This document shows, in pieces, positions 9,301-24,302 of a stretch of 29,021 nucleotides of DNA (its first letter is position 1; the number at the start of each line of letters is the position of its first letter). A program made the translations under genes and the position numbers. The stretch lies in IMG/VR virus record IMGVR_UViG_3300017963_000632, positions 1 to 29,021 of that record. The stretch is one strand, 5' to 3'. Below the pieces are notes generated by a model. It made no database searches. It worked only from the letters and a program-made list of their open reading frames with translations, and was not told the origin of the DNA. Source of the stretch: a virus.

Positions 9301-9771
9301 ATGACCGACGAAAAATTGACGGCCGAACAACGCAAACAACGTCGCGACGCGGAACGCCGCGAATACGACGAAAACGAATTGCAGTTTTTTCGGCAATTGT
9401 CGCACAACGCGTTGTTGCGCGAACCGCATTTGGCCCGCGAGTTAATGCAATTATTGGAGTACGGGTTGACCGGTTCGAACGCCCGTGAATTGCCCGGCGA
9501 AACGTCCGAAATGGGCAAAGTTGAAATGCCGGAATTGCCGCCGTATCCAAAACCGGCGGTCCCGCGCGACGACCAATTCGATTTACAATTGTACCGGCAA
9601 ACGGCAATGCAAAGTTTGATGCGACAATCGTTGATCGTTTCGCAATTGTTTATTTTGTTGCATACGGCAATTCGGGGCGACCGCGAATCGATCAAAAAAC
9701 AAATCGACGACGCGTTGGTCAAATTTCGGCCAATGGCAGGGGGGAATCATGGCGACGAACAGCAAAATTGA
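9301..9771 (+). CDS. Hypothetical helical protein, 156 aa
   Basis: Not recognised. The ATG follows a GAGGA-containing leader. The N-terminal 40 residues are highly charged and helical (EQRKQRRDAERREYDENELQ), followed by a Leu-rich helix, a Pro-rich linker (MPELPPYPKPAVP) and a second helical region with VSQLFILLHTAIRG. The last 23 bases overlap the DUF5131 gene. Two helical parts joined by a proline linker would suit a structural or adaptor protein; no function is assigned. Confidence 0.65.
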   Translation: MTDEKLTAEQRKQRRDAERREYDENELQFFRQLSHNALLREPHLARELMQLLEYGLTGSNARELPGETSEMGKVEMPELPPYPKPAVPRDDQFDLQLYRQTAMQSLMRQSLIVSQLFILLHTAIRGDRESIKKQIDDALVKFRPMAGGNHGDEQQN

Positions 9772-10774
9772 ATGGACCGACCATACCGCGAATTTTTGGT
9801 GGGGATGTTCGAAAATCGCGTCCGGTTGTGCGCGTTGTTACGCCGAATCGGACGCCAAGCGGTACGGGCGGGATTGTTTCGGCGACGACGTCCCGCGTCA
9901 ATTCGTCAAATCGGTTTGGTCCGATGTACGGCGTTGGAACAACGACGCGCGGAAAACCGGCAAACGGGCCCGGGTTTTCGTTTCGTCGATGTGCGATTTT
10001 TTCGAAGAACCCCGCCCCGTTGTTTCGTTGGACGGTCGGCCGTTGCGGATCGACGCGCGGGACGGCAAATTCACGTTCGACGTTGGCGACCCGATCGATA
10101 CGGGCGGTTTGCGGAAAATGGCGTTTGAAATTATCGACGAATGCGAAATGTTGGATTTCCTATTGTTGACCAAACGCCCGGACAACATCGGCCGGTTTTG
10201 GACGTTGCCGCAAAACGGCCGCGACCCATCGGACCCGATGGTCGCCAAACGCGAAAACGTATGGTTGGGTTTTTCGGCGTCCGACAACGATTCGATGGCG
10301 TCCGATTTTCAAAAATTCGTCGATCAACGGCCGCGATATTTGGCCGCCGGGACGTTTTTGTCGGCCGAACCGTTGTTGGAATGTTTGTCGTTTACCGTCC
10401 CCCGTGAAGAAGGCGACGGGCAAATCGCATTCGATTACCCACTGGAAGGTCGCCGGACCCATAAAAGCGGGGCATGGGACGACGCGAACGTCAAATTGGA
10501 TTGGGTCATTATCGGCGGCGAATCGGGCCCCCGGGCCCGGGAATGCGGCGTCCGTTGGATCGAATCCATGGTCGGGCAATGCCAAAAATACGACGTCCCG
10601 GTTTTCGTCAAACAATTGGGCAGCAACCCGTTCGTCGAGGATGTAACGGATTGCGAACATTGCGGCCAATCATATACGGAACGGTTTGGTTTGGATTTGG
10701 ACGACCGCAAAGGCGGCGACCCCGACGAATGGCCGTTGCCGGATTTGAACGTCCGGCAAATGCCGTTCGATTGA
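9749..10774 (+). CDS. Phage Gp37/Gp68 family protein (DUF5131)
   Basis: The 341-aa protein matches the DUF5131/Gp37-Gp68 family. It starts KIEWTDHTANFWWGCSKIAS, followed by GCARCYAE, so Cys20, Cys27 and Cys30 form the CX6CX2C cluster characteristic of the family, proposed to be radical-SAM-like. Later family motifs are FLLLTKRPDN, WLGFSASD, LSAEPLLE and WVIIGGESGPRAR, followed by WIESMVGQCQKYDVPVFVKQLG. A C-terminal CEHCG adds a possible metal site. The family is frequent in phages and prophages; its reaction is unknown to me. The start overlaps the upstream gene by 23 bases and is preceded by AGGGGGGAATC. It is the last gene before a terminator. Confidence 0.9.
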   Translation: MATNSKIEWTDHTANFWWGCSKIASGCARCYAESDAKRYGRDCFGDDVPRQFVKSVWSDVRRWNNDARKTGKRARVFVSSMCDFFEEPRPVVSLDGRPLRIDARDGKFTFDVGDPIDTGGLRKMAFEIIDECEMLDFLLLTKRPDNIGRFWTLPQNGRDPSDPMVAKRENVWLGFSASDNDSMASDFQKFVDQRPRYLAAGTFLSAEPLLECLSFTVPREEGDGQIAFDYPLEGRRTHKSGAWDDANVKLDWVIIGGESGPRARECGVRWIESMVGQCQKYDVPVFVKQLGSNPFVEDVTDCEHCGQSYTERFGLDLDDRKGGDPDEWPLPDLNVRQMPFD

Positions 10775-14139: not shown

Positions 14140-15663
14140 ATGATTCGTTTTTTGATTGCGATTTTGTTGTTGTTGATGTTCCCGGCGACGGTCGGGGCGG
14201 ATCGGCCAATCGTTCGACATACGCAAGTTGATAGCCGAACCGGTACGTTGTTACGCGATACCGGGCGGTTGGATTTGCCGGTCGGAAAACGTTACGACGA
14301 ATGGGTCGCCGCCGGGCGTTGGACGTTTACGAAATCCCGGAAATCGCATTTTGGCATTTGCCGGACGAAACAAAACGATTTTTCCGAACGGATAACCCGG
14401 ACCGGGTCCGGCGTTTTGGTATGGTCCGACGGCAAACGCGGGTTCGTTTTGACGGCCAACCATAGCGTCCCGAACAACGACCCGGTTTTGTGTCATTGGC
14501 CAAGCGGCAAACGATACGGGACCGTTGCCCGCCGCGATACGGCGGCCGATATCGCGATGATTATGTTGGACGATGTCCCGCGCGATGCGATCGTTGTTCC
14601 GGTCGATATGGGGTCGACGCCCAAACCGGGCGGGTACGTTGAAATTTGCGGGTACGGCGCACAGGTTTCGGACATCCGGACATTTTGGGGATTGATCCGG
14701 ACCGATACGACGTACGACGTCCAGATCGTCGCCAACGCGTACATCGTCCACGGGGATAGCGGGGGCCCGATGTTGCAACGCGACCGCGTCGTCGGCGTTG
14801 CGTTGGGCGGTACGCGCGAAAAAGCGGTCCAAACGACCAACGGTCCGATCGCGATCATATACCCGGCATGCGGGTGCGGCCCGGGCCCGATTCGGCGAAT
14901 GTTGCGTTGTATGTTTCGCAATCGTTGTATGCCCCGCGTGTACCCGGTTATTCCGATCCCGGTCCAACAATGCGCGCCGATGGGGGCGCCGGTTCCGATG
15001 TTGGTTCCGTCCCAACAACGACCGCAAACGATAATCAACAACAACGTCCCCCAACCGTTGCAACCGTTGCCGACGAAACAACCGGAACAAAAACCCGATC
15101 CGAAACCGGACGGGCCTGTAACGGCCGAAATCGAAATCGATTACAACAAATTAGCGGATTTGGTATACGAACGCATGGCGAACAACCCGGAACATTTCCG
15201 GGGCCCGCCGGGCGAAAAAGGGGACAACGGCAATCCGGGCGGGACGCCCGAAATTGACTATGCGGTATTATCCGACCGAATTTACGAAAAAATTTCGGAG
15301 AACGCAGATCAATTCCGGGGCCCGCCGGGTTTGCCGGGCGCCCCGACGACGATCGGATTGTTGGACGGCGACGGAAATGTCGTAATGACCATATCGCCGG
15401 ATACGTCCGGCCAAATCAATTTGCCGCCGGTACGTATGCAAATCAAGCAAATCGACGGGTCAACCGATCAACAGGCGAAACCATTGGGCGAGCATATCCG
15501 GGTCAAATTGGTCCCGATCGACGCCCAAAAACAACCGAAACCGGACCCCAAACCGGACGCGGAACCGGGGCCGACGGGGGCGTCCGGGGATTTGCCGCCG
15601 CCGATCGGGGCCCAAAAAATCGAAAATTTGGGTTCGCAAAACGACGAAAAACCGGCACAATAG
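14140..15663 (+). CDS. Secreted trypsin-like serine protease with collagen-like repeats
   Basis: The 507-aa protein starts with a clear signal peptide (MIRFLIAILLLLMFPATVGA, cut near residue 20). A trypsin-fold protease domain follows with a full catalytic triad: His108 in TANHSV, Asp137 in DTAADIAM, and Ser207 in HGDSGGPM. After a cysteine- and proline-rich linker come two copies of a roughly 40-residue unit (IDYNKLADLVYERM and IDYAVLSDRIYEKI), each ending in collagen-like GPPG triplets (355-368 and 394-402), then a Pro/Lys/Asp-rich tail. A secreted protease with GXY stretches is unusual for a phage early region and may be a host-derived moron acting outside the cell or on the virion. The stop is TAG. 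Confidence 0.85.
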   Translation: MIRFLIAILLLLMFPATVGADRPIVRHTQVDSRTGTLLRDTGRLDLPVGKRYDEWVAAGRWTFTKSRKSHFGICRTKQNDFSERITRTGSGVLVWSDGKRGFVLTANHSVPNNDPVLCHWPSGKRYGTVARRDTAADIAMIMLDDVPRDAIVVPVDMGSTPKPGGYVEICGYGAQVSDIRTFWGLIRTDTTYDVQIVANAYIVHGDSGGPMLQRDRVVGVALGGTREKAVQTTNGPIAIIYPACGCGPGPIRRMLRCMFRNRCMPRVYPVIPIPVQQCAPMGAPVPMLVPSQQRPQTIINNNVPQPLQPLPTKQPEQKPDPKPDGPVTAEIEIDYNKLADLVYERMANNPEHFRGPPGEKGDNGNPGGTPEIDYAVLSDRIYEKISENADQFRGPPGLPGAPTTIGLLDGDGNVVMTISPDTSGQINLPPVRMQIKQIDGSTDQQAKPLGEHIRVKLVPIDAQKQPKPDPKPDAEPGPTGASGDLPPPIGAQKIENLGSQNDEKPAQ

Positions 15664-17417: not shown

Positions 17418-18944
17418 ATGAACGCACAAACTTTGGCACAAAACGAATTGATCCGGGCGATTAAGGCGGGCCGTCGCGTATCGGTTCCGATTTTCGCGGT
17501 TACGACGCCCGACATGTCGGCCGTACAGCGGTTGATTTGCGACGCGTTGAACGACGACAACGTCCCGAAAATTGCATGGGATTTGGTTCGCGGCATGAAC
17601 CCCCGCAACAATCGCGGGGCGGCGGTATTGGCCGAAATCGGCGACGACGTCGAACAAACCGAAGGCGATCCGGTCGCATGTTTGAAATTGGCGGCCCGGT
17701 TGCCGGAATCGTCGGTTTTGTTTTTCCATAACGCCCAACGATTCATCGACGACGCGTCCGTCGCCCAGGCGATTTTGAACCTACGCGACGAATTCAAAGC
17801 GGACCGTCGGTCGTTGGTTTTGTTGGGGCCGTCGGTACCCGTCCCGGTCGAATTGGTCGGATCGGTTGTCGAAATCGACGACCCGTTGCCCGACGATGAC
17901 CGGTTGGCCGAAATCGTCGAAAACCAAATCGGCGCGGTACCGCCGGAACAATTGGAATTCGACCCGACCGAAGAAGTTGTCGCCAACGCCGCGACGCGGT
18001 TACGCGGTACCATGGCATTCGGCGCCGAACAAACGGCCGCGATGGCGTTACGCAAGGCCGGATTCGACAACGATTTTTTGACATCGTCGGCGAAAAAAAT
18101 GATTGAACAAACCCGGGGCGTAACGTTCGAAGTCGGCGAAGAAACGTTCGACGACATCGGCGGTTTGGATTTCGCGAAAACGTTTGCCAATCGCATGGCG
18201 GCGGGCCCCGAAAAACCGGCGGTTATTGTCCGGGTCGAGGAATTGGAAAAATCGATGTCGGGGGCGACCGGGGGCGATTTGTCCGGGACGTCGTCCGACG
18301 CGCTGCAAGTCCTATTGTCCGAAATGGAGGACAACAACTGGTCGGGCATTTTGGCATTCGGTCCGGCGGGGTCGGGGAAATCGTTGTACTCGAAAGCGTT
18401 TGCGAATTCGACGGACGCGACCGCGATCAAATTAGATATTAACGAATGCAAAGGGTCGTTGGTTGGCGAATCGGAACAAAACATCCGGGCCGCGATGAAA
18501 ACGATTAAAACGATCGGCGGGACGCGGGTCTTTTTCGTTGCGTCGGTCAACCGGTTGGAATCGTTGCCGCCCGAATTACAACGGCGGTTCCGTTGCGGCG
18601 TTTGGTTTTTCGACATCCCATCGGCCAAAGAACGGAAAACGATTTGGGCATTGAACCGGGAAAAATTCGGGATCGACCCCGCCGACGTATCGCCCGACGA
18701 AACGGATTTGACCGGGGCGGACATCCGGAACATTTGCGAAATGTCCCGGCGGTTGGGTTGTACGTTGGCCGAGGCGTTGGATTTCGTTGTCCCGTTGAAA
18801 ACGCAATCGCCCGCGTCGATCCGGGAAACGCGCGAAAAGGCCCACGATCGATTCATCGACGCGGCGAACGGCGGCGTTTACAAATTGCCCGAAAAACGAC
18901 GCCGCAAATCGGGCAAAACGCGAACGGTTGATTTGGACGATTGA
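17418..18944 (+). CDS. Ycf46-like AAA+ ATPase with apparently permuted AAA domain
   Basis: The 508-aa protein resembles the Ycf46 family. Its N-terminal half (about 25-170: FAVTTPDMSAVQRLI, KIAWDLVRGM, SVLFFHNAQRFIDD, RSLVLLGPSVPVPVEL, then EIDDPLP) matches the degenerate, Walker-A-less N-terminal ATPase of that family. In the C-terminal half, the Walker-B-like segment VIVRVEELEK (269-278) and GDLSGTSSDALQVLLSEMED (286-305) come before Walker A GPAGSGKS (315-322), VGESEQNIR (349-357), sensor-1 VFFVASVN (371-378) and arginine-finger-like QRRF (388-391). In ordinary AAA proteins Walker B lies between VGES and sensor 1, so the domain appears circularly permuted. The Walker B acidic pair reads EE, not DE. 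A Lys/Arg tail follows. Role unknown. Confidence 0.8.
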   Translation: MNAQTLAQNELIRAIKAGRRVSVPIFAVTTPDMSAVQRLICDALNDDNVPKIAWDLVRGMNPRNNRGAAVLAEIGDDVEQTEGDPVACLKLAARLPESSVLFFHNAQRFIDDASVAQAILNLRDEFKADRRSLVLLGPSVPVPVELVGSVVEIDDPLPDDDRLAEIVENQIGAVPPEQLEFDPTEEVVANAATRLRGTMAFGAEQTAAMALRKAGFDNDFLTSSAKKMIEQTRGVTFEVGEETFDDIGGLDFAKTFANRMAAGPEKPAVIVRVEELEKSMSGATGGDLSGTSSDALQVLLSEMEDNNWSGILAFGPAGSGKSLYSKAFANSTDATAIKLDINECKGSLVGESEQNIRAAMKTIKTIGGTRVFFVASVNRLESLPPELQRRFRCGVWFFDIPSAKERKTIWALNREKFGIDPADVSPDETDLTGADIRNICEMSRRLGCTLAEALDFVVPLKTQSPASIRETREKAHDRFIDAANGGVYKLPEKRRRKSGKTRTVDLDD

Positions 18945-18968
18945 TCGGTTATCGGCGGGGCGGGGGAC

Positions 18969-19007
18969 GCGTCAGGCGGTCGCAGGGGCCGCCTGACGCC
19001 GGTTTTT
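18969..19007 (+). terminator. Factor-independent terminator
   Basis: GCGTCAGGCGG (18969-18979) pairs with CCGCCTGACGC (18989-18999), followed by CGGTTTTT. It lies between the ATPase gene and the 110-aa gene; no promoter is seen after it, so partial read-through is expected. Confidence 0.88.
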
Positions 19008-19026
19008 ACGAAACGGGAGACGAACC

Positions 19027-19359
19027 ATGATTCAAACGTATTTTTTGCCGACGCCCATTGCGGCGGCGGTCCGAACGAACCGGGCGGAATTCGTCGACGT
19101 TTACCTCGACGAAATGGAAACCCGGATCGAAAACGGCGACGATGTCGACCGGGAAAAATTGGAAATGGCGCGGTTGATCGGCGATTTGTTACGCGACCGG
19201 GCCGACATACAATACCGGTCGCATGGGATCGCGGAACGGTTGCGGTCGGTCGCCGGGGTCATCGGGTCCGCGTCGGATTTCGCCGACGGTTTGTTGGCCG
19301 CAGCGATGGGTATCGAAAACCATTCGGAATCGGGGGCCGCGAACAATGGAAATCGTTAA
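19027..19359 (+). CDS. Hypothetical helical protein, 110 aa
   Basis: Not recognised. AACGGGAG lies about 9 bases before the ATG. The product is soluble and helical (RAEFVDVYLDEMETRIENGD and later a Leu/Arg-rich helix). The last 14 bases overlap the metallopeptidase-like gene. It lies in the transcript between the ATPase and the HExxH protein, so it may serve with them; this is context only. Confidence 0.65.
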   Translation: MIQTYFLPTPIAAAVRTNRAEFVDVYLDEMETRIENGDDVDREKLEMARLIGDLLRDRADIQYRSHGIAERLRSVAGVIGSASDFADGLLAAAMGIENHSESGAANNGNR

Positions 19360-19981
19360 TACGACGGATTATCCCAAGATTCCGGATTACGTTGTCCGGC
19401 GAATGGTCGGTTGGATTTGCCGCGAATTGGAAATCCGCGTCCGGCATGTCCGAACATTCCGGTTGCGGAACCGCAACGACGGTTTCAATTCGGGCCGTTG
19501 TTGGATGTGGCGGGGCGAAATATTGGTTTCGGTCGGCCGCGTAATCGTAACCCAACCGGGCCCGGGGACGATGAAATCGCGCGAACGAAAATGGGGTCGC
19601 GGTAAACATTGGTGGGTTGACGCCGAGGGACTACGTCGGCGGGTCCGGAATGCGGTTTGGGTTTTCGCCCATGAATTGGCGCATTTGAAGTTGTATTTGG
19701 AACAAACCAACAAAAACGGTCGTTGCGAACGCGGGACCGATTGGTTTGCTAAACGGGTCAAAACGACGTTCGAATCGAACGCCGACGCGTTGTTGGATCA
19801 ATGGTTGGCGGAACCGAAACGGCGGGCGGCGGCATCGTCGCCGGTTGACCCGGACGCCCAACGCGCGGCCGCCGATGCGGCGTTGTTGAAACAATGGGAA
19901 CGCAAACAAAAAACGGCAAATACCAAAGTCAAAAAATACCGGGCCCGGGTCCGGAAATGGACGAAACGGGGGTTGTTATGA
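19346..19981 (+). CDS. HExxH zinc metallopeptidase-like protein
   Basis: The 211-aa protein carries HELAH (residues 109-113), the HExxH zinc-binding and catalytic motif, inside a helix (NAVWVFAHELAHLKLYLEQ). A later FESNADAL segment (142-149) offers a glutamate as third zinc ligand, the layout of gluzincin or SprT-like families. The N-terminal 100 residues contain beta-strand-like stretches and WMWRGEILVSVGRVIV. The C-terminus is very basic (KQKTANTKVKKYRARVRKWT), suiting a DNA- or RNA-associated protease. The start overlaps the upstream gene; the stop overlaps the next start as ATGA. Protease activity is inferred from the motif. Confidence 0.65.
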   Translation: MEIVNTTDYPKIPDYVVRRMVGWICRELEIRVRHVRTFRLRNRNDGFNSGRCWMWRGEILVSVGRVIVTQPGPGTMKSRERKWGRGKHWWVDAEGLRRRVRNAVWVFAHELAHLKLYLEQTNKNGRCERGTDWFAKRVKTTFESNADALLDQWLAEPKRRAAASSPVDPDAQRAAADAALLKQWERKQKTANTKVKKYRARVRKWTKRGLL

Positions 19982-20889
19982 TTCGGCGAATATACCGGCA
20001 CCGGGAAACCGGCGAAGAACGGGCGATCATTTTTCCGGGCGAATACGACAACGATTTCCGCGTCATTGTTCAACGGTATCCGTTATCGTCGACGCCCGAC
20101 CCGGCGTCCGAACATCGGGACCGGGCCGACGCCCGTCTGCATGCGTACCGGATCGTTCGCGAATGGATCGACGGCGGTTTCGTATTGAAACAATCTGATA
20201 CGGGCGACGTTCCCGCCCCGCGATCGCAACCGTTTATTCCGTTACCCGAACCGGCCCGGGTGTTATCCGAACCGGCCCGGGTTTGGTTGGAATCCGACCC
20301 GTTCGTCCCGCCCGGTTGGACCGGGCCGCCGGTCGTATCGATGTCCGGCAATGCCGAATCGGTCCAAATCGAATTCGCGGGGGTTTTGGAATCATTCGAA
20401 ACGGGCCAATCGGTCAACATGGGCGTCGATTTTCCGTCGTTGCCGAACATGACCGCCCGGGGGGCAATATCAAACATCGAAATCCAATTGGAATCGGGGG
20501 CGATCCCGCGAACGATTGTCGAGGTCCAAGTCCGGTCGCGAACGCCGGTCGAAACTGCCGTCGACGACATCGCGTCCCGGATCGATTTGTCCGGCCCGGT
20601 CAATTGGGCGTCGGTTTGGGATCAATTGGACGGGTTACGATCGCCCGTCGATCGCCGCCGGGCGTTGGCCGAATTGCAAACCATGGCGACCGATGCCCGC
20701 CGCGACGCCGAACTAGAGGCCGACCGGCAACGCCGCATTCAAGCCGAGGCCGACCGTTTGGAACGCATGCGCGAACGCGACCAACAAGCCCGCGAACAAA
20801 TCGCGGCCGACGAACGGGTCGCGGTCGAACGCGAATTGGAACGACGCGAATTCGGCGAAAAATCCCGCAAGATCGATTTGGACGAATAA
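19978..20889 (+). CDS. Hypothetical protein with C-terminal coiled coil, 303 aa
   Basis: Not recognised. The start forms an ATGA overlap with the upstream gene. The N-terminal domain (RRIYRHRETGEERAIIFPGE) is probably beta-rich. A duplicated short motif EPARVLSEPARVW occurs near residue 95. A third part (about 225-300) is a strongly charged coiled coil (AELQTMATDARRDAELEADR and following). It closes the ATPase operon, because a promoter of the repeated family starts right after it. A structural or scaffold-type role is possible. Confidence 0.65.
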   Translation: MIRRIYRHRETGEERAIIFPGEYDNDFRVIVQRYPLSSTPDPASEHRDRADARLHAYRIVREWIDGGFVLKQSDTGDVPAPRSQPFIPLPEPARVLSEPARVWLESDPFVPPGWTGPPVVSMSGNAESVQIEFAGVLESFETGQSVNMGVDFPSLPNMTARGAISNIEIQLESGAIPRTIVEVQVRSRTPVETAVDDIASRIDLSGPVNWASVWDQLDGLRSPVDRRRALAELQTMATDARRDAELEADRQRRIQAEADRLERMRERDQQAREQIAADERVAVERELERREFGEKSRKIDLDE

Positions 20890-20911
20890 TCGCAATATTT
20901 TTCCCGAACAT

Positions 20912-20957
20912 GCCGAATATGGTCTTGAATGATGTTCCGACTTCGGTACAATTCAAA
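20912..20957 (+). promoter_or_regulatory. Repeated-family promoter with upstream box
   Basis: GCCGAATATGGTC box (20912-20924), TTGAAT (20925-20930), a 16-base spacer with GATGTTCCGACTTCGG, then TACAAT (20947-20952). No terminator hairpin is seen between the upstream stop and this promoter. Confidence 0.85.
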
Positions 20958-21016
20958 TATCGGGTCGCAACGGGCGGCCCAACCGGTTGGCATTTGAAAA
21001 ACGGGAGACGCAGGAA

Positions 21017-22096
21017 ATGACGACGAACGACATGTTTGGACTGACGGAAACGGAAACCCGGGCGGCGATCGATGAAACGCGGGAACGGTTGGACAACATC
21101 CCGACCGAACCGGAACCGGATGTCGAACCGGCGGAACCAACGCCGACGGTCGACGTACCCGGGGGCGACGAACCGTTCGACGATCGGCCGTTCGCAGAAC
21201 GGTTGCGCGACGAAACGTCGGCGGTCCGGTTGCGGCGGCGGTATTTGGGTTTGACCCGGGCGTTGAAACCGGAACAACGGCGGCGGGCGGCGGCGGTATT
21301 CGGGGCGACCCCCGAGGCGGTCCGGGGCCGCAAAACGTTGGTCGATCATCCCGCAATCGCGGCATGCCATGCGGCGGTTGACCGGGCCGTCGATTATTGG
21401 AAATCGATGTCGGTTCCGTATCCGGCCGACCGGGGCGTCCGGTTGATCCGCCGCGATCGCATCGACGAATTCGAAGCAGGAATGCAGCGGATATTGGACG
21501 ATTTGGGGTCGGCTGTTGCCGCCGCAAACGAGGTATACGCTGAGGTTTTGGACAAAGCGCGGGCCGATTTGGACGAATTGTTCGACGCGTCCGATTACCC
21601 GGAATCGTTGATCGGGGGGTGGGGTTTCGATTGGGAATATCCGTCGATCGAACCGCCGGATTATTTGCAGGAACTGAACCCGGCGTTATTTGCGGCCGAA
21701 CAGGCTAGAATTCGCGCCCGGTTCGAGGAAGCGCTTGCCGCGACCGAACAATCGTTCGTCGAAGAATTCGGGTCGTTGGTCGCCAAAATAACGGACCAAT
21801 TGACGCCATCGCCCGACGGCAAGGTCAAGCGGTTCCATGAATCGAACGTTGAAAAATTGCGGGAATTTTTCGACCGGTTCCGGGAATTGAACATCGGGTC
21901 GAACGCCGAATTGGACCAATTGGTCGTCGCCGCCAAAGACGCGGTCGCGGGCGTTACCGGCAAAGGAATCCGCAAAGACGCCGACGAACGGACGTCGGTT
22001 CGCGAATCGTTGTCGGCGGTTTACGACCGTTTAACGTCGTTAATGGTTGACCGTCCGGACCGTCGTATTTCATTGGACGACAACGCGGACGATTGA
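21017..22096 (+). CDS. Conserved-looking protein, DUF3150-like, 359 aa
   Basis: ACGGGAG and AGGAA precede the ATG. The N-terminal 55 residues are acidic and disordered (Glu/Pro-rich). The body is helical with LRRRYLGLTRALKPEQRRRA, GRKTLVDHPAI, YWKSMSVPYPADRGVRLI, then FEAGMQRILDDLGSAVAAAN and a Trp-rich segment (GWGFDWEYPSIEPPDYL). This order of segments recalls the DUF3150 family and related large uncharacterised proteins often next to AAA ATPases; I recall similar ones in Planctomycetes but could not check. It has its own promoter and terminator, so it is a single-gene unit. Function unknown. Confidence 0.6.
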   Translation: MTTNDMFGLTETETRAAIDETRERLDNIPTEPEPDVEPAEPTPTVDVPGGDEPFDDRPFAERLRDETSAVRLRRRYLGLTRALKPEQRRRAAAVFGATPEAVRGRKTLVDHPAIAACHAAVDRAVDYWKSMSVPYPADRGVRLIRRDRIDEFEAGMQRILDDLGSAVAAANEVYAEVLDKARADLDELFDASDYPESLIGGWGFDWEYPSIEPPDYLQELNPALFAAEQARIRARFEEALAATEQSFVEEFGSLVAKITDQLTPSPDGKVKRFHESNVEKLREFFDRFRELNIGSNAELDQLVVAAKDAVAGVTGKGIRKDADERTSVRESLSAVYDRLTSLMVDRPDRRISLDDNADD

Positions 22097-22120
22097 CCGG
22101 TCGGGGCGGGGACGCGACGC

Positions 22121-22157
22121 GGCGGGTTCGGATTATCCGGCCCGCCGATTTTTTTTT
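22121..22157 (+). terminator. Factor-independent terminator
   Basis: GGCGGG (22121-22126) and CCCGCC (22141-22146), extended by CGGA/TCCGG with a U bulge, are followed by GATTTTTTTTT. It ends the single-gene unit at 21017-22096. Confidence 0.85.
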
Positions 22158-22176
22158 GGAATTATTGGTCCCGACG

Positions 22177-22222
22177 GCCGATATACCCCTTGTATGATGT
22201 ACCGGCGACGGTACAATACGGT
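22177..22222 (+). promoter_or_regulatory. Repeated-family promoter with upstream box
   Basis: GCCGATATACCCC box (22177-22189), TTGTAT (22190-22195), a 16-base spacer with GATGTACCGGCGACGG, then TACAATACGG (TACAAT at 22212-22217). It drives the DUF1257/DUF2997 gene run. Confidence 0.88.
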
Positions 22223-22255
22223 TGTAACATTCAAACATCCGAACGGGGGACAACA

Positions 22256-22675
22256 ATGGGCGCGACAAACTTTTCAATGACGGTTGCGGCGAAAACGGTC
22301 GACGAGGCGTATCGGGTCGCCAACGAAATGGCCCGGGATTACAACGGGCACCAGGACGGGTATTCGGGCGACATCCAAACGACAAACGGTTTTGTCGAAT
22401 TCAAATTGCGGCCCCGGTTGTCGGTCGAAAAATTCGAACGTTGGGTTTGGGATTGCGTTTTCGAACCTGAAGGGGCGTTTTTGAAACGACGCGGCATTCA
22501 AGATCACGACGTTCCGTTGATCCGTCGGGCGGCGGTTGTCGCAAACGAAAAATGGGGCCGTTGCGTTTGCGTTGAAATCACAGGCAAAGCGGCGACCGAT
22601 TGGAAAAAATCGCATGGATACGCCGGGAAACGCGGCGTTCGGGTTTACAAATTTTTCGGAACGGGCGCCGAATGA
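22256..22675 (+). CDS. Hypothetical protein, 139 aa
   Basis: Not recognised. The ATG follows GGGGGA. The product appears alpha/beta with two repeats of a strand-helix pattern (MTVAAKTVDEAYRVANEMAR and CVCVEITGKAATDWKKSHGY), and a basic C-terminus (YAGKRGVRVYKFFGTG). It is the first gene of the DUF1257/DUF2997 transcript, so it may be a partner or small-molecule-binding protein in that set. An RNA hairpin lies just after its stop. Confidence 0.65.
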   Translation: MGATNFSMTVAAKTVDEAYRVANEMARDYNGHQDGYSGDIQTTNGFVEFKLRPRLSVEKFERWVWDCVFEPEGAFLKRRGIQDHDVPLIRRAAVVANEKWGRCVCVEITGKAATDWKKSHGYAGKRGVRVYKFFGTGAE

Positions 22676-22685
22676 AACGGGGACC

Positions 22686-22707
22686 GGGGCCCGGTTCGCC
22701 GGGCCCC
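22686..22707 (+). other. Perfect GC hairpin with UUCG loop before the next gene
   Basis: GGGGCCCGG (22686-22694), TTCG loop, CCGGGCCCC (22699-22707). There is no T-tract, so it is not a normal terminator. It sits 21 bases before the next ATG and directly upstream of its CGGGAG site, so it could be an RNA processing, stability or translation-control element. Confidence 0.7.
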
Positions 22708-22728
22708 ATGGCAACGGGAGACAAAACG

Positions 22729-23040
22729 ATGCCATGTTGGGAAGTTCGAACGATGTCGGTCGAATTCAACGCCGAAAACCGCGACATGTTGGACCGGGCG
22801 ATCGCGGCCGTTGGCGAAACCGCAATTTGGACCGGGTCGATTGTTTCGTTGTACGGCGGGGCGATCCAAATCGATACGGAATCGAAATCGGCCCGGGTCC
22901 GGGACGGGTACCAAAACAATTTGAACGAATTAAAACGGTCGTATTCCCGCGAAGCGGTCAAAACGGCCGCCGCCCGCGCCAAATGGGCGGTCAAATTCGA
23001 CGGCAATCGGGCAACGGTCAAACGAAAAAAACAATGGTAA
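22729..23040 (+). CDS. Small protein of the DUF1257/DUF2997 cluster, 103 aa
   Basis: The product starts MPCWEVRTMSVEFNAENRDM and continues LDRAIAAVGETAIW, a strand-helix-strand opening resembling that of DUF1257-type proteins, then an IQIDTESKSARVRDG strand pair, a helix YSREAVKTAAARAKWAV, and a final basic strand. I read it as possibly related to the DUF1257 or DUF2997 group but cannot confirm. CGGGAG lies 9 bases before the chosen ATG; an in-frame ATG at 22708 directly after the hairpin is an alternative. It is followed by the DUF2997 gene after 14 bases. Confidence 0.6.
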   Translation: MPCWEVRTMSVEFNAENRDMLDRAIAAVGETAIWTGSIVSLYGGAIQIDTESKSARVRDGYQNNLNELKRSYSREAVKTAAARAKWAVKFDGNRATVKRKKQW

Positions 23041-23054
23041 ACGGGGGCGATCCC

Positions 23055-23273
23055 ATGGCGGCGAAAAACGAATTTGAAATCGAAATTTTGGAAGACGGGA
23101 CGATTTCCGTCACGACGGACGGGTTTGACGGTACGGTCCACAAATCGGCCGACGAATTCGTCAAAACATTGGGCGACATGTTGGGCGGGCCGGTCGTTAT
23201 CAAAAAACGGAAACGGCATCACCATCATTCGCATGGGGAACGAAACCGCAATCAGGCAAAAGCGAGGGGTTGA
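23055..23273 (+). CDS. DUF2997-like protein, 72 aa
   Basis: The product fits the small DUF2997 family: an N-terminal strand pair (EFEIEILEDGTISVTTDGFD), then a helix (KSADEFVKTLGDMLGG) and a last strand (PVVIKKRKR), followed by a His-rich tail (HHHHSHGE) that may bind metal. In cyanobacteria I recall DUF2997 genes next to DUF1257 (Ycf35); here the next gene is DUF1257. Two further DUF2997-like and DUF1257-like genes follow in the same run. GGGGGCG precedes the ATG. Confidence 0.75.
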   Translation: MAAKNEFEIEILEDGTISVTTDGFDGTVHKSADEFVKTLGDMLGGPVVIKKRKRHHHHSHGERNRNQAKARG

Positions 23274-23275
23274 AA

Positions 23276-23746
23276 ATGTCGCATATTTCGACGGTTCGAT
23301 TGACGTTGGATGATATGGACGCGTTGGCGGCGGGTTGCCGCCAATGCGGCGTCGAACTACGGTTGGGCCAAAAAACGTACCGGACGTACGGCAACGTCGA
23401 ACGTCCATGCGACGCGGCGATCGTTTTGACCGGGAACCGCTGGGCGTACGAAATCGGCGTCGTCCGCGTCCGGCAACAATCCGACGGAACGTACGTCGAC
23501 GATCCGAACGGGAACGAATGTCAATTGCGGTTCGACGATTGGGACCGGGGCAACGGCATGATGGACCAAGTCGGCCCGGAATGTTCGGCGTTGATGCAAC
23601 AATACGGGGTCGAAAAAACCCGGTCGATCGCCAAACGGAACGGTTGGTCGTTCAAAACGGAAACGCAACGCGACGGTTCGGTCCGTTGTTATTGCCAACC
23701 GAAGCAAAAAAAATGGGCCCGCGCGGGCGCCGGTCGGAAATGGTAA
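23276..23746 (+). CDS. DUF1257 (Ycf35-like) protein, 156 aa
   Basis: The opening MSHISTVRLTLDDMDALAAG is the signature of DUF1257/Ycf35 (MSHxS/T xxx xxxLxxL). YGNVERPCDAAIVLTG, then NRWAYEIGVVR, matches the family core, and the segment CSALMQQYGVEKTRSIAKRN, followed by GWSFKTETQRDGSVRCY, matches its C-terminal helix and strand. The family occurs in plastids, cyanobacteria and some bacteria; its biochemical role is not established. The start follows the DUF2997 stop by 2 bases with GAGGGG upstream. Together with a Ycf46-like ATPase 4 kb upstream and two DUF2997 genes it forms the set seen together in some bacterial genomes. Confidence 0.85.
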   Translation: MSHISTVRLTLDDMDALAAGCRQCGVELRLGQKTYRTYGNVERPCDAAIVLTGNRWAYEIGVVRVRQQSDGTYVDDPNGNECQLRFDDWDRGNGMMDQVGPECSALMQQYGVEKTRSIAKRNGWSFKTETQRDGSVRCYCQPKQKKWARAGAGRKW

Positions 23747-23785
23747 CGGGTTGTTCACGGTAACGAATTTGTTTTGGGGGATATC

Positions 23786-23980
23786 ATGGCGGAACGGGTA
23801 ATCGTAACGGTCGGGCCGACGGGCGAAATTACGGTCGAGGCCGACGGCGTCGTCGGGTCCGGATGCGGCGAATTGACCAAGGCGTTTCGGGACGGGTTGG
23901 GCGAACAAACGTCCGACCGGAAAAAACCCGAATATTACAAACGGGCCGATCAAGCCAACCAACAATCGGCGGGGAAATGA
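23786..23980 (+). CDS. DUF2997-like protein, second copy, 64 aa
   Basis: The core RVIVTVGPTGEITVEADGVV, then GSGCGELTKAFRDGLGE, is the DUF2997 layout (two strands with a turn, a Gly-Cys segment, then a helix), closer to the typical family pattern than the copy at 23055. The C-terminus is polar (YKRADQANQQSAGK). I choose the ATG at 23786 because GGGGG lies just upstream; one at 23774 overlaps that site. It follows the DUF1257 gene, so the cluster is DUF2997, DUF1257, DUF2997. Confidence 0.8.
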   Translation: MAERVIVTVGPTGEITVEADGVVGSGCGELTKAFRDGLGEQTSDRKKPEYYKRADQANQQSAGK

Positions 23981-23984
23981 TCCA

Positions 23985-24302
23985 ATGCAAATTACGATTC
24001 GATCCGACGGCCAAATCGAATTCGTCCGTTCGGACGCCCTGGCGGCCGCGTACGACGCGGTCGGGGCGGAACGGGCCGAACGTCGGGCGTCGCATGTCGA
24101 ACCGGTTTGCGCCCCGTTGCGGACGTTATTTCGGGCGATCCGGCGCCGGGTCCGGGATGATTCCGTTTTGGCGACATTCACCCGGTATTGGCCCGTTCGT
24201 TGGCGGGTCGCGATCGTTGGTGGGCCGACGTTTGGTCCGTTTTGGTCGCGTCGCGCCGCGATCCGGGCCGAAATCGAATGGTTGAACGAAAACGAACTTT
24301 GA
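23985..24302 (+). CDS. Hypothetical protein, 105 aa
   Basis: Not assigned to a family. The ATG follows the DUF2997 stop by 4 bases. The opening MQITIRSDGQIEFVRSDA is a strand-turn-strand; RASHVEP, then a Trp-rich strand (RYWPVRWRVAIVGGPTFGPF) and the last helix (RRAAIRAEIEWLNENE) follow. I associate RASHVEP...GGP..GPF...A...E..WL with a small family in Planctomycetes-like genomes, by recollection only. It is part of the same transcript as DUF1257/DUF2997. Confidence 0.6.
   Translation: MQITIRSDGQIEFVRSDALAAAYDAVGAERAERRASHVEPVCAPLRTLFRAIRRRVRDDSVLATFTRYWPVRWRVAIVGGPTFGPFWSRRAAIRAEIEWLNENEL

Follow-up and report, generated by a model that had tools for sequence, protein, structure and literature searches.

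Few enzymes have been studied as much as AAA+ motors, and the order of their core strands is usually treated as fixed. Canonical Ycf46-like AAA+ proteins, such as Corndogvirus gp100 and those of Rhizobium phage L338C, the Manganitrophus plasmid CP114554 and Pirellulaceae chromosomes, have two domains, of which a D1-like half lacks ATPase motifs, and carry the signatures VGES, SG[TV]S after Walker B, and LPPEL. The permuted proteins described here share all of these features and the block lengths, and often a gene cassette encoding DUF1257, DUF2997 and DUF3150 proteins. The canonical proteins differ in placing the Walker B block between VGES and sensor 1, in a Walker A that always ends in GK[ST] and in an RxxRF arginine motif. 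CDC48/p97 resembles the permuted protein in the fold of both halves but differs in motif order, and the p97 N-domain is absent from the permuted model. We found no described function for the Ycf46-like AAA+/DUF1257/DUF2997/DUF3150 cassette in the literature searched; in cyanobacteria, DUF1257 and DUF2997 genes adjoin a ferredoxin gene, and the papers found show nothing more (PMC4284462).

Permutations that keep the motifs are known in P-loop GTPases, namely the YRG family (YjeQ, YlqF and YqeH) and cpRAS (PMC2741578, PMC2430557). There the whole domain is permuted, to G4-G5-G1-G2-G3 or G3-G4-G5-G1-G2, whereas in the protein studied here two adjacent blocks inside an AAA+ core have changed places. 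No permuted AAA+ family was found in the open-access literature that we searched; most subscription papers lay outside the search, and absence is unproven. In two papers (PMC7824862, PMC10853773), permuted methylases are the only permutation mentioned.

Order of the core blocks in the window ATPase

The window, by which we mean the whole stretch of DNA analyzed, is a 29,021-base IMG/VR record encoding a DnaB helicase, a RecE-like exonuclease and a RusA-like resolvase. A permuted AAA+ ATPase of 508 residues (positions 17418-18944, + strand, as are all features given with coordinates below unless they are side observations) was characterized by ORF translation, Pfam, block HMMs and in silico reordering. 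It is encoded in one open frame over its full length. Residues 1-232 (17418-18113) form a D1-like AAA half that lacks ATPase motifs and has canonical strand order. This assignment rests on AF2 secondary structure and on VIA-align of residues 3-489 with p97 D1-D2; the AF2 elements of this half span residues 25-172, and its sequence has no P-loop.

The translation contains FDDIGGL (residues 244-250), VIVRVEELEK (269-278) and SGTSSDALQVLLSEMEDN (289-306), all before Walker A. Block B (residues 265-306; 18210-18335), the moved block, was defined by block HMM and AF2 and comprises beta3 with Walker B, pore loop 2 and alpha3; its Walker B acidic pair is Glu274-Glu275 (18237-18242). Block A (residues 307-368; 18336-18521), defined in the same way, comprises beta1, Walker A, alpha1, beta2, pore loop 1 and alpha2, and includes Walker A as GPAGSGKS (315-322; 18360-18383) and VGESE (349-353; 18462-18476) in the pore loop 1 region. 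The sensor 1 strand with Asn378 (18528-18551; AF2 and motif counts) lies in the FFVASVN motif region (372-378) and is followed by RRF (389-391; 18582-18590), which corresponds to RxxRF in canonical relatives. VGES, sensor 1 and the arginine motif thus follow Walker A in their usual order.

We determined the block order with three profile HMMs, all built from canonical-order relatives only: A, from Walker A to alpha2; B, Walker B plus alpha3; and C, sensor 1 plus the lid. In the window protein, B matched at residues 269-305 (E 7e-7), A at 310-367 (E 2e-15) and C at 371-442 (E 3e-10). Shuffled sequences reached 7.4 bits at best; over 87 permuted viral rows, the moved block had a median of 38 bits and a median E of 5e-11, and chance occurrence of the motif was rejected. 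All 87 rows gave the order B-A-C. The permuted order in the window ATPase is real.

Sequential profiles behaved as follows. The Pfam AAA profile (PF00004) scored above its cutoff, over residues 311-365 only (columns 1-55 of 131), since the profile does not meet the remaining core elements where it expects them. When residues 265-306 were put back behind residue 368, in a reordered sequence that served as a search query only, this match rose from 46 to 67 bits and its coverage from columns 1-55 to 1-124. Reordering also raised the CDC48 (TIGR01243) score from 35 to 52 bits, far short of the curated cutoff of 802. In tblastn, it strengthened the match to Firecracker gp100 (70 to 115 bits) and weakened the one to the permuted protein of phage Tunturi_3 (223 to 167 bits). 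The strongest PHROG match, phrog_8638 (E 5e-36), was split into four stretches, as would fit a profile of canonical order, if we assume that order for phrog_8638 itself. The top BFVD matches carry the name ycf46. The identity of a circularly permuted GTPase was set aside, as the protein has AAA+ motifs (sensor 1, the arginine motif and the lid) and matched only AAA profiles, although no search for GTPase motifs was made.

Distribution and descent of the permuted order

The compared set consisted of 137 B-A-C proteins, from 87 viral loci and 50 bacterial contigs, and 44 A-B-C proteins. The permuted proteins reach down to ~31% identity, and some rows are near-copies of one another. Scans of IMG/VR reported 273 relatives, of which the best 80 were used; 95 GTDB relatives came from a scan with a narrower relative alignment. 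An earlier GTDB scan with the first relative alignment as query gave no match, and an IMG/VR scan with the Tunturi_3 protein as query found no relative. Among the GTDB one-per-species bacterial genomes, 50 loci were B-A-C and 26 A-B-C. The B-A-C records were deposited under Acidobacteriota (mostly Bryobacterales), Armatimonadota, Nitrospirota, Planctomycetes, Gemmatimonadetes, Deltaproteobacteria and, in one MAG, Bacteroidota; these host phyla are as deposited, and most of the records are MAG contigs. The order is also B-A-C in gp103 of the isolated Tunturiibacter phage Tunturi_3 (33% identity by tblastn), and normal in mycobacteriophage relatives such as Firecracker gp100. Block lengths hardly differed between the two orders (N 268/269, A 63/61, B 38/42 and C 138/141).

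Some Bryobacterales and Acidobacteria MAGs carry several permuted copies each (L123, L124, L131 and L143; L117, L125, L129 and L130; L136 and L145), with partner genes at most of the loci checked. At a Nitrospirales locus (L132), a CHC2-like primase and a possible integrase were seen by eye, which suggests integrated elements.

We examined descent with a quick IQ-TREE analysis that used only the unmoved N-terminal and sensor-1/lid parts and a sample of 40 permuted rows; its branches are long. All 40 rows fell on one branch (SH-aLRT 100) nested among canonical rows, and the order changed once on the tree, a count as low being reached in 0 of 500 shuffles. The canonical proteins nearest to this branch are from Desulfobacteraceae and Pirellulaceae. 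The permuted proteins are members of the Ycf46-like family by descent and form a permuted subfamily within it; within the limits of a quick tree, it is likely that the order arose once, from a canonical Ycf46-like ancestor. The likeliest route would be that the A-B segment was duplicated in tandem and that the first A and the last B were then lost. The intermediates expected from such a duplication, with block A or block B present twice, were absent from the compared proteins.

Predicted fold, active site and alternative explanations

An AF2 model made from 14 permuted sequences (mean pLDDT 84.7, pTM 0.69) contains all five core strands. Its elements run beta3 (269-273), alpha3 (291-305), beta1 (309-314), alpha1 (321-331), beta2 (335-339), alpha2 (351-367), beta4 (371-377) and beta5 (395-397). 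Together with the block HMMs, this gives the strand order beta3-beta1-beta2-beta4-beta5 and not the linear beta1-beta2-beta3-beta4-beta5. The model has no strand between VGES and sensor 1, where the helix at 351-367 fills the segment.

VIA-align superposed the permuted model on p97 D2 (6g2v) over 200 residues (2.7 A, Z 16.3), compared with 249 residues (3.1 A, Z 22.2) for the canonical relative L025 on the same 6g2v chain. The shortfall of ~49 residues fits a 42-residue moved block that a sequential aligner skips. Alignment to p97 D1-D2 (7lmz) covered 401 residues (6.8 A, Z 18.1). The structural match lists contained only classical AAA proteins, and do not exclude other folds.

We also analyzed co-variation by the mean-field method in the 137 permuted sequences (effective number 86), a small set with noise among the top pairs. 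Pairs 274-376 and 273-373 link the moved strand with the sensor 1 strand, and pair 269-367 links it with the end of alpha2; pairs 294-353 and 302-364 link the moved alpha3 with alpha2. Among the 10 strongest pairs with a residue in the moved block, six connect elements that lie side by side in the normal AAA+ fold, where 1.2 were expected (P 5e-4). This P is optimistic, since the list of adjacent elements, written from general knowledge of the AAA+ fold, postdates sight of the top pairs. From secondary structure, co-variation and alignment length, though not from measured coordinates, the moved strand likely neighbors the sensor 1 strand as in an ordinary AAA+ fold.

These results bear on a first-pass annotation made from the sequence alone. 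It had called the protein a Ycf46-type AAA+ ATPase with a degenerate ATPase half in front, and had placed a Walker B-like VEELEK and the LLSEMED helix before Walker A, the remaining motifs (VGES, sensor 1 and arginine) in normal order, and no Walker B between VGES and sensor 1. All of this held, the placement before Walker A in translation, block HMMs and AF2 alike. It would have been refuted by a normal Walker B strand between residues 357 and 371, which the AF2 model lacks, or by a sequencing or frameshift error, which fails against B-A-C order in independent records. The term "circularly permuted" held only in part: the order is permuted, but by an internal swap from A-B-C to B-A-C that leaves the N- and C-terminal parts unmoved. 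Of the checks that it proposed, the search for the same order in other phages uncovered a large family that includes bacterial genomes, and structural alignment to p97-type AAA domains gave, with a sequential aligner, the 200-residue match to D2.

The active site is conserved, with changes. All 137 permuted proteins keep the Walker A Lys, the Walker B Glu, the sensor-1 Asn and the final Arg of the arginine motif. At the sixth position of Walker A, 95 of the 137 have Ala, Ser or Cys, and all 44 canonical proteins have Gly; Walker A ends in AK[ST] or SK[ST] in most permuted proteins and in 0 of 44 canonical ones. In place of the RxxRF spacing, the permuted proteins have [RK]RRF or similar, with two to three basic residues before Phe. 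The Glu-Glu Walker B pair that had been pointed out in the window protein is correct there, but it is a minority variant and no family hallmark: the first acid is Glu in 11 of 137 permuted proteins, the window protein included, and the pair is Asp-Glu in 126. Since the catalytic residues are invariant, the permuted protein is probably an active but re-tuned ATPase; this is an inference from sequence, without ATPase assay data.

Other explanations deserve weighing against a real permutation. A frameshift, chimeric assembly or sequencing artefact could be raised because the window comes from one viral record of metagenomic origin. However, its open frame is unbroken, and B-A-C recurs in Tunturi_3, an isolated phage, as well as in more than 80 other IMG/VR contigs and at 50 GTDB loci; as the order is found across 137 proteins down to ~31% identity, we consider an artefact all but excluded. 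Alternatively, VEELEK could be only a look-alike in a degenerate AAA+ protein with an insertion before Walker A, the true Walker B being lost or elsewhere. In favor of this reading, the window motif is VEELEK rather than hhhhDE. Against it, 126 of 137 relatives have Asp-Glu at that position; the 38-column HMM derived from canonical proteins fits the whole block, including an SGTS stretch that is specific to the family; canonical proteins carry nothing additional at this place, and the two orders agree in block length; a single helix lies between VGES and sensor 1; and the segment co-varies with beta4 and alpha2. We regard a look-alike as very improbable.

It is also conceivable that the permuted domain keeps its fold but serves as a nucleotide-binding scaffold or regulator and not as a motor. 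The change of the Walker A Gly to Ala or Ser and the shortened arginine motif would then reflect lost or slow hydrolysis, and the Glu that replaces the first Walker B acid in the window protein could be read in the same way. However, the 137/137 invariance of four catalytic residues is hard to explain without selection for hydrolysis, and MCM helicases, whose Walker A has Ala or Ser at this residue, are active. We consider a scaffold unlikely.

Gene cassette and a proposed motor

The window contains, within 17418-24302, a full set of ATPase, DUF3150-like, DUF1257-type and DUF2997-type genes. Downstream of the ATPase are a protein of unknown kind without a PHROG match (19978-20889), whose tail, SRKIDLDE, is of the same type as that of the ATPase, and the DUF3150-like partner (21017-22096; family HMM E 2.7e-88), with the tail RRISLDDNADD. 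These are followed by a small protein beginning MPCW, distantly DUF1257-like (22729-23040; HMM E 2e-18 and family alignment); a small DUF2997-like protein with a His-rich tail (23055-23273; HMM E 1e-15 and family alignment); a DUF1257 (Ycf35)-like protein (23270-23746, start uncertain; family HMM E 3e-32); a DUF2997 protein (23774-23980, start uncertain; family HMM E 8e-18), of a family whose members match PF11211; and a small unknown protein, cluster 3 (23985-24302; HMM E 8e-18). PF11348 is matched by 10 of 32 members of the DUF3150-like family and PF06868 by 8 of 14 members of the DUF1257 (Ycf35)-like family.

A DUF3150-like gene lies downstream of the ATPase in 85 of the 87 viral permuted loci. 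DUF1257-type genes occur at 74 and DUF2997-type genes at 79 of these loci, counting the distant small families, and the cluster 3 protein at 41, as well as at 8 canonical loci. Canonical relatives on Candidatus Manganitrophus, Nostoc and Geminocystis plasmids have part or all of the cassette, and the nearest canonical relatives, on Planctomycetota chromosomes, have the same cassette. Since canonical relatives carry the cassette too, the ATPase was rearranged inside a pre-existing cassette.

C-terminal tails of the form R-x-hydrophobic-x-hydrophobic-acidic end 52 of 73 partners and 34 of 84 ATPases, compared with 51 of 1415 other ORFs; these counts overstate independence, because homologous proteins share tails by descent. 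In the window, R-x-[ILVF]-x-[LFI]-(D/E) tails were observed at 18921-18941 (RTVDLDD, the tail of the permuted ATPase, + strand), 20866-20886 and 22058-22093. The same tail type was seen in L004 gp99 and in downstream genes of L099, L100 and L102, canonical cassettes included.

Other genes of the window were observed in passing. Directly downstream of the ATPase, 19346-19981 encodes a 211-residue protein with an HExxH motif (VFAHELAHLKL), a possible metallopeptidase without a PHROG match. A trypsin-like protease (PF13365) is encoded at 14140-15663, and a DUF5131 protein (PF07505, phrog_2045) at 9749-10774; DUF5131 genes also occur in the vicinity of the ATPase at another five permuted loci.

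The explanation that we favor as likely, taken as a whole, is that a Ycf46-like two-domain AAA+ protein was rearranged in place, keeping its core fold and single active site, and acts as a motor; structure, ATPase activity and ring are inferred. The 42-residue beta3-pore loop 2-alpha3 block with Walker B would have moved from after alpha2 to before beta1, and the retained AAA+ fold would let Walker A, Walker B, sensor 1 and the arginines still build one active site. The protein may assemble into a p97-like ring and hydrolyze ATP in its permuted half but not in its D1-like half, although there are no ring or ATPase data. From fold and neighborhood, it would be an ATP-driven motor that remodels proteins of the phage or mobile element, and the DUF3150-like protein, judging from its gene neighborhood, would be a dedicated adaptor or substrate. 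The common C-terminal tails could possibly act as docking tags, an idea that rests on a short motif only.

A bolder reading, to which we give slightly less than even credence, is that this is the first natural permutation of an AAA+ core to be described, one that became fixed a single time and then spread through mobile elements in several bacterial phyla. If it is true, the re-tuned active site that goes with the permutation, with its Walker A Gly-to-Ala/Ser change and new arginine spacing, suggests that chemistry and subunit signaling may be wired unlike those of all other AAA+ motors. Permuted proteins of which sequential profiles catch only part also expose a blind spot of such profiles. 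The cassette is widespread and its function undescribed in the literature found, and the phage proteins and their sisters offer a way in. With a large permuted family beside canonical sisters in the same cassette, the role of connectivity in a ring motor can readily be studied by comparison.
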